A stretch of DNA of 47,811 nucleotides, taken from positions 1-47,811 of the forward strand of contig JACRHW010000002.1 in the NCBI GenBank assembly GCA_016217555.1, given 5' to 3'. Every line of letters begins with the position of its first letter. Within the stretch, counting starts at the first letter, position 1. The translations under genes and the position numbers were made by a program. Source of the DNA: Parcubacteria group bacterium. Its GTDB lineage: Bacteria > Patescibacteriota > Minisyncoccia > UBA6257 > JACRHW01. Under the pieces are notes generated by a model. That model was not told where the DNA came from. It worked only from the letters and a program-made list of their open reading frames with translations, and made no database searches. Positions 12,664-47,792 of this stretch are shown here, piece after piece.

Positions 12664-12711
12664 TCCTTTATTGTCTAAGAACTAGGCATAGTATAACAAA
12701 AAAATGAAAAG

Positions 12712-12793
12712 TGTAAATCTCAAAATGTAAAGTTACGGTATCTCTTTGGGATAATTTTAAATTTTGCATTGTCATTTTACACTTTGAGATTTG
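12712..12793. repeat. AT-rich imperfect inverted repeat
   Basis: TGTAAATCTCAAAATGTAAAGTTAC against rc TGCAAATCTCAAAGTGTAAAATGAC. Confidence 0.65.
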
Positions 12794-12816
12794 CATTTTT
12801 AACTTTTATAAATAAT

Positions 12817-12840
12817 AAGGCCCCGCTTGTGCAGGGTCTC
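12817..12840 (-). terminator. Terminator of the candidate large RNA
   Basis: AGACCCTGC-ACAA-GCGGGGCCTTATTATTT on minus strand. Confidence 0.6.
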
Positions 12841-13371
12841 ATGGTCGGGGTTGCTACCCCTAGTTGCTAGGTGCTCGAATGCCATTGCCTGGCTTTCATG
12901 TCGAGCACCCATCTCCTCACTTCGGCATCGCTTTTGCGCTGCCTCCTTTCTTTTTCCCGCAATCGTTGCGGGAGGGCGCGATGCCCCTTTGCATTGCTGC
13001 GTCGGGGCGTGGGGTGGGGGGCTGCCGGCTGGCTGCGCGCTAACTACTCCGGTGAGCGTTGCGCGGTGCCCGGTGTGTCGGGTCCCCCTAGGTTTTTCGG
13101 GGTTGCGGAATGGATTTCCACAACCCCTAGATTCACAGAAAACCAGTTGGATGCTTGCGCATGGCGCTACCTTCCCCCTTTCTTTTTTTTCGAATATGCT
13201 GCAGGATTTTCGCGAGAACGGGCTCCCCTGGTTACCCTGTCATGGTTCTCGCTACGCCCAGCGTCCCTAAGGCGGAACGCCGGTTGGATGCCGCAAAATG
13301 TTCATTCGGCTCTCCTTTCTGGTGCGGCAATCTCGCTTGCCCGACACCATTTTCTTGGTACTCCGCGTGGC

Positions 13372-13464
13372 CTAGTGGCCAGTCGGGGCGCCGTAGACAG
13401 CGGTACTCGCCTCGGGCTTCCTGCCCTCGGCGAGACGCCTTTTTTCTGCCTTACGGATTTTCAT
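13372..13464 (-). CDS. Candidate 30-aa ORF inside the large RNA: MKIRKAEKRRLAEGRKPEASTAVYGAPTGH
   Basis: SD GAAGGAGG with ideal spacing to ATG on the minus strand. Confidence 0.35.
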   Translation of the reverse strand: MKIRKAEKRRLAEGRKPEASTAVYGAPTGH

Positions 13465-13715
13465 TTTTCACCTCCTTCGGTGTTTTTTCTTTTTTCAAAA
13501 AGCGGGTTAGTAAGAAGGAGGAACCACACTCCTTACTAACCACAAAAAATGGGGAAATTAGTGGGAGAGTTGTATAGTACAGCCTCTCATGAACGTAGTC
13601 GATCGCCTAGGGCGAATTATCCATACTACGTTTCCACCAATGCCCCAAAATATAATCGAGGATAGTTGAGCAATGATCTGAGCCCAACTATCCCCAACTT
13701 CAATCTTCTGCTTTT

Positions 13716-13743
13716 AGTAGAGCATATCCACAAATATTGTCAA
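13716..13743 (-). promoter_or_regulatory. Promoter of the candidate large RNA
   Basis: TTGACA (rc of 13738-13743), 16-bp spacer, TCTACT (rc of 13716-13721). Confidence 0.45.
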
Positions 13744-13762
13744 GTACCTGTTTTGCCTTGAT

Positions 13763-13885
13763 AAAACCTATCTATTCGGATGAAATGCGAGGCGCACATG
13801 AGAAACGGACTGAGCTGTATTTCACTGATACAGCGAAGGAGTATCGCAGTGTGCAACGAAGCAGTTCGCCAAAGAGGTAGGTTTT
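13763..13885. repeat. Element A2: family-1 structured repeat, diverged copy
   Basis: Arms AAAACCTATCTATTCGG/CCAAAGAGGTAGGTTTT; 89-nt core alignable to 616-704 and 42513-42600. Confidence 0.8.
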
Positions 13886-13890
13886 TGCTA

Positions 13891-13918
13891 AGAAAGTACG
13901 CCTTGCGGCGTACTTTCT
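13891..13918. terminator. Strong hairpin, possible terminator of zwf
   Basis: AGAAAGTACGCCttgcGGCGTACTTTCT, 12-bp stem. Confidence 0.55.
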
Positions 13919-14027
13919 CCAAATGACGTAAGTGACAGATCCGATAAAGGTTCTGAAATTCACCCACCTATGTCTGAAGTATAGCAGATTACGTTTTGTT
14001 TGTAAAGGGGGGTAAGGCTATCCCTTC

Positions 14028-47671: not shown

Positions 47672-47792
47672 CGTACCGGCGTACCCTACTTTCCCCTCCG
47701 CCGAAGCAGATAGTATCATTGGGCTCATGTAGTTTCACGACTCTGTTCGGAATGGGAAGAGGTGGGGCATACATGAGTAAAACACCGACACA
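47672..47792 (-). rRNA. rrf: 5S ribosomal RNA
   Basis: Minus strand CCCACCTCTTCCCATTCCGAACAGAGTCGTGAAACTACATGAGCCCAATGATACTATCTGCTTCGGCGGAGGGGAAAGTAGGG. Confidence 0.93.

Follow-up and report, generated by a model that had tools for sequence, protein, structure and literature searches.

A candidate stand-alone structured RNA with a string of mini-ORFs in one Patescibacteria family

The window analyzed here, a 47,811-nt stretch of a Parcubacteria group bacterium contig (JACRHW010000002.1), contains a GC-rich block between zwf and a HAD-phosphatase gene, and the question was what kind of element this block encodes. A structured RNA of no recognized family had been proposed in a preliminary description. 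Annotation misses structured RNAs without a family as well as ORFs below about 30 codons, and this locus holds both; in addition, the RNA biology of Patescibacteria is almost unstudied. From the features described below, we consider it reasonably probable that the minus strand encodes a stand-alone structured RNA of ~0.9 kb together with a string of translated mini-ORFs, restricted to one family. The unit appears to be more than a non-coding RNA, yet it does not resemble a typical protein gene.

The GC content was 0.53-0.58 across positions 12750-13500, compared to about 0.42 outside the block and about 0.40-0.45 in its flanks. The unit extends from promoter to terminator at 12810-13743 on the minus strand (Table 1). 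Both the promoter-like TTGACA-16-TCTACT at 13743-13716 and the closing GC hairpin with its tail at 12836-12811 were present as had been described. In the homologous copy G002, the promoter reads TTGACA-16-TATAAT with a nearly identical spacer, and this block is the best DNA match between the window copy and G002 (83% over 46 nt, E 4e-6). It was unrecognizable in the other homolog, G001. The unit measures ~0.9 kb in the window and about 0.6 kb in G002, and the aligned part in G001 is 0.5 kb.

Table 1. Features of the promoter-to-terminator unit in window coordinates, listed 5' to 3' on the transcribed strand. SD, Shine-Dalgarno sequence.
Feature	Position	Strand	Sequence	Conservation or basis
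Promoter	13716..13743	-	TTGACA (13743-13738)-16 nt-TCTACT (13721-13716)	Sequence; counterpart in G002
5' leader hairpin	13505..13542	-	GGTTAGTAAG..CTTACTAACC	Gap in the alignment of both homologs
ORF1, 30 codons	13372..13464	-	MKIRKAEKRRLAEGRKPEASTAVYGAPTGH-TAG; SD AAGGAGGTG	Coding substitution pattern vs G002
ORF2, 12 codons	13267..13305	-	MNILRHPTGVPP-TAG; SD AAGGAG	Window copy only
Hairpin before ORF3	13212..13252	-	GCGAGAAC..GUUCUCGC (window); GUGAGGGC..GCCCUCAC (G001)	3 of 8 pairs changed on both sides, 0 broken
ORF3, 9 codons	13133..13162	-	MRKHPTGFL-TGA; SD AAAGGGGG	Same place and length in three genomes
Hairpin after ORF3	13099..13127	-		6 of 12 pairs changed on both sides (window vs G001), 0 broken
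ORF4, 3 codons	12917..12928	-	MPK-TGA; SD AAAGGAGG in window and G002	Same place and length in three genomes
Hairpin after ORF4	12870..12909	-	GGUGCUCGA..UCGAGCACC (window)	Other sequence in G001 and G002, still paired
Small hairpin ahead of terminator	12847..12860	-	GGGG..CCCC	Sequence, fold
Intrinsic terminator	12811..12836	-	Hairpin (12836-12821), then U-rich tail TTATTATTT	Retained with pair changes in G001 and G002

The predicted fold of the minus strand from 13500 to 12810 had an energy of -284.8 kcal/mol and thus a z of -7.1 relative to dinucleotide shuffles (-233.4 +/- 7.2). Every hairpin listed in the preliminary description was found in the sequence. The fold z value was -8.8 in G002 and -2.6 in G001. 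The plus strand of the window copy reached only -4.0 against its dinucleotide shuffles; therefore, the transcript most likely lies on the minus strand. The long plus-strand ORFs, which are antisense to it, most likely result from the GC richness of the block.

The two homologs were obtained as short matches in a DNA search of 200 relatives. G001 belongs to the same genus (Parcubacteria MAG JACRHX01) and G002 to the same family (Patescibacteria MAG JAGWJP01). Two other DNA matches were rejected, one being the SD-start region of another gene and the other the promoter of an unrelated gene. A kinase gene, or a HAD gene plus a kinase gene, follows closely downstream of the unit on the same strand in all three genomes. 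On the opposite side, the neighbor is zwf in the window; in G001 and G002, ORF reading points to a putative glycoside hydrolase and dnaX. Since the far-side neighbors differ, the conserved linkage of the unit is with the HAD/kinase side. Pattern and profile searches of 246 genomes of the order, 384 genomes across the phylum, GTDB r220 contigs and viral contigs confirmed no further member, and no such unit was found upstream of the kinase gene at 21 loci in other families. The unit has so far been seen in three related Patescibacteria species only.

No match to the locus was found in Rfam 15 at gathering scores, and a relaxed threshold gave chance-level matches only. The Rfam models of OLE, GOLLD, ROOL, HEARO and the raiA motif did not match any of the three copies. 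RNase P RNA (RF00010; contig C13 31249-31679, locus L010, 98.6 bits) and tmRNA (RF00023; contig C7, 90 bits) of the same genome are located on other contigs, and ARAGORN predicted neither tRNA nor tmRNA in the whole window. The absence of a recognized family and of RNase P or tmRNA identity therefore held up, and identity with a known RNA was dropped. A phage origin was also dropped, since phage records contained no match to the RNA or the peptide; a literature search returned nothing matching the unit. As a separate observation, the RNase P RNA score lies just under the cut-off of 100 bits, so threshold-based annotation could miss this RNA. A SAM riboswitch (47.8 bits) was observed on a G001 contig (locus L007, 12263-12358, plus strand), and a 5S rRNA lies at the end of the window (47673-47790, minus strand).

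Several other elements were observed next to the unit. Directly upstream, a second small conserved unit at 13867-14006 (minus strand) has a promoter-like TTTACA-17-TATACT, followed by GTGGGTGAATTTCAGAACC..CACTTACGTCATTTGGA and a GTACGCC..GGCGTAC hairpin. It is conserved at the same place in G001 (88%) and G002, has no Rfam match and is a candidate sRNA of ~90 nt. At 13762-13885 (minus strand) lies a dispersed repeat whose ends, AAAACCTA..TAGGTTTT, are inverted. The same genome holds five further copies (86-94% identical); G001 and G002 also have several, but almost none were found beyond the family. This repeat is palindromic and MITE- or REP-like, and no ORF was recognized in it. The stretch that separates the terminator from the HAD gene contains a long inverted repeat with imperfectly matching arms, AAAGTGTAAATCTCAAAATGTAAA..TTTACACTTTGAGATTTGCATTTT, at 12708-12799; it overlaps the promoter-like site of that gene (TTTACA-16-TATACT, 12717-12690).

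Covariation was analyzed between the window copy and G001 only, on six chosen helices in an alignment of two sequences. All 38 pairs were retained in both copies, 11 of them changed on both sides, and none was broken. The helices were picked from an RNAalifold prediction, which biases the percentage of paired positions upward, and the compensatory changes are directly visible, for example in the hairpin before ORF3 (Table 1). When the partners were slid by 1-3 columns as controls, 0 or 1 double-sided changes were obtained. Conserved secondary structure, one feature of a dual-function RNA, was thus found by covariation, in two sequences only. G002 was too diverged to be aligned across the hairpins; nonetheless, it has hairpins at corresponding places. 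Several hairpins of the 13500-13700 region, including that at 13505..13542, are exclusive to the window copy.

Between the strong hairpins of the minus strand lie SD-led mini-ORFs, overlooked in the earlier sequence reading, with AUG starts at 13464, 13305, 13162 and 12928 and lengths of 30, 12, 9 and 3 codons. Across all three copies, their sizes range from 3 to 33 codons. The window copy carries ORF1 to ORF4 and G002 carries ORF1, ORF3 and ORF4. G001 carries ORF3 and ORF4, together with the hairpins and the terminator, but has neither ORF1 nor ORF2 nor the promoter block. Since G001 retains the 3' part without ORF1, this part is the conserved core.

ORF1 is under protein-coding selection, as judged from its substitutions. 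In G002, it has 33 codons and a UUG start, and its peptide LKIRKKEKERLARGEKNPAAGTPQAVYAAPTGK is 73% identical to that of the window copy. The alignment of 90 nucleotides contains 32 differences, 19 of them in third positions. Sixteen codon changes are synonymous and nine non-synonymous, leaving 21 of 30 residues identical (22 when the TTG start is counted as Met); when these changes were placed at random 20000 times, no placement retained as many. Protein-type conservation of one frame, which the preliminary description had set against its own proposal, was therefore found between the window copy and G002 over 90 nt (13464-13375). On evolutionary evidence, ORF1 is a conserved small ORF that is probably translated. 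Its peptide follows the pattern MKIRKxEKxRLAxG...AVYxAPTG, and its profile, when searched against 246 genomes from the order and 384 from across the phylum, recovered only the window copy and G002. Two weak profile matches that were read proved to be located in unrelated sequence. No ORF1 family was found in Pfam, NCBIfam or PHROGs, and the best PDB match had an E of only about 0.4.

For ORF3 and ORF4, the evidence consists of the SD, start, length and stop conserved in three homologs, and the codon-level case is convincing for ORF1 only. The ORF3 peptides are MRRYQVGFL-TGA in G001 and MRRYTSGFL-TGA in G002. ORF2 has GCATCCAACYGG (HPTG) in frame in common with ORF3. Among 246 genomes of the order, a degenerate ORF3 pattern matched these three loci only, and the reversed pattern matched none. 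When GTDB r220 contigs and IMG/VR were added to the order, one Eubacterium MAG also matched, presumably by chance. Between the window copy and G001, alternative frames of ORF3 were as conserved, and the codon pattern alone is not decisive. UGA readthrough, a SECIS element and a frameshift at ORF3 were rejected, since a second in-frame stop follows one codon on in the window copy and G001, and the +1 frame is closed in both homologs. ORF4 reads MPG-TAA in G001 and MPG-TGA in G002. In 150 genomes, the MPX-stop pattern gave two matches at other loci, both within protein genes, and the reversed pattern gave one.

The density of these mini-ORFs was compared with that elsewhere. The window contains 17 ORFs of at most 35 codons with an SD of at least 6 nt (47.8 kb, both strands), and three of the 17 fall within 540 nt at this locus. 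None was present in the RNase P or tmRNA regions of the same genome, and three such ORFs occurred in 0 of 400 dinucleotide shuffles of the window region. In shuffles of G001 or G002 taken singly, the enrichment was not significant. The predicted accessibility of the SDs was mixed (0.17-0.66 unpaired) and not uniformly high.

The fold, the covariation, the promoter and terminator and the lack of an Rfam family uphold the structured RNA of the preliminary description, whereas its purely non-coding character is not supported in view of the coding ORF1 and the SD-led mini-ORFs. A purely structural non-coding RNA, with the SD-like purine stretches as single-stranded linkers and ORF3 and ORF4 as incidental, is rather unlikely. 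The strong covariation, the A-rich linkers (AAAGAAAGGAGG), which resemble those of other structured RNAs, the weak codon evidence of ORF3 and the missing ORF1 of G001 are consistent with it, but ORF1 has a clear coding signature, and ORF3 and ORF4 retained their start, stop and length in three diverged copies. Conversely, the unit might be an ordinary small-protein mRNA for ORF1, with the long stable 3' region as a stabilizing UTR. ORF1 is the sole frame with a statistically strong coding signature; however, the persistence of the other mini-ORFs, hairpins and terminator in G001 makes this very improbable.

The position of the unit in all three genomes and its succession of short leader ORFs, hairpins and terminator, which is the anatomy of an attenuator, would also fit a cis-acting leader of the HAD-phosphatase/kinase genes, in which mini-ORF translation decides whether the final terminator forms. 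We regard such a leader as unlikely, because the HAD gene of the window is preceded by a promoter-like site of its own, and promoter-like sequence was seen by eye in G001 and G002 as well. Moreover, general folds of the three copies revealed no mutually exclusive anti-terminator pairing, several ORFs over about 0.9 kb are long for a leader, and in more distant relatives the kinase gene is not preceded by such a unit.

Within the preferred reading, a structured RNA with translated mini-ORFs, we infer a function of the peptide or of ribosome loading and pausing. In all three copies, exactly 5 nt separate the ORF3 stop from the hairpin that follows, and about 7-8 nt separate the ORF4 stop from its hairpin. 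When the stop codon occupies the ribosomal A site, a hairpin 5-8 nt past the stop lies at the mRNA entrance. Ribosomes would be recruited again and again by the SDs, each reading 3-33 codons, and at termination a strong hairpin would sit at this entrance, so that each module may hold or slowly release one ribosome. The ORF1 product would be a basic micropeptide, probably RNA- or ribosome-binding. The most economical function is probably a stabilized ORF1 message that yields the micropeptide(s), with translation-dependent modules whose ribosome loading and pausing would regulate or protect the RNA. It is doubtful that the unit is a natural ribosome-loading array, in which ribosomes are captured by repeated modules of SD, mini-ORF, stop and hairpin and made to pause at stop codons, so as to buffer, park or regulate ribosomes in a reduced Patescibacteria cell. 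If the mini-ORFs are translated, the locus would provide a compact natural system for the effects of 3- and 9-codon genes with stop hairpins on ribosomes.

Among known systems, the large GC-rich intergenic structured RNAs OLE, GOLLD, ROOL, HEARO and the raiA motif are similar in general appearance, but the present unit has conserved mini-ORFs and matches none of their models. To our knowledge, conserved mini-ORFs are not known in these classes. Leader-peptide attenuators (trp, erm-type) likewise place short SD-led ORFs, then hairpins and a terminator, ahead of same-strand genes; the present unit differs in the separate promoter-like site of the downstream gene, in showing no alternative pairing in the folds and in having several ORFs over about 0.9 kb. 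SgrS/SgrT, RNAIII/hld and SR1/SR1P are dual-function bacterial RNAs, both coding and regulatory. Like them, the unit appears as a stand-alone structured transcript that ends in a terminator and carries a small SD-led ORF. Unlike them, it has two to four ultra-short ORFs in series with hairpins directly past the stops, is confined to one Patescibacteria family and has no known base-pairing target. The bar minigenes of phage lambda consist of an SD and a 2-codon ORF and cause peptidyl-tRNA drop-off. ORF4 (MPG or MPK) resembles them at the sequence level only, with a strong SD followed by an ORF of 2-3 codons, but is embedded in a conserved chromosomal structured RNA.
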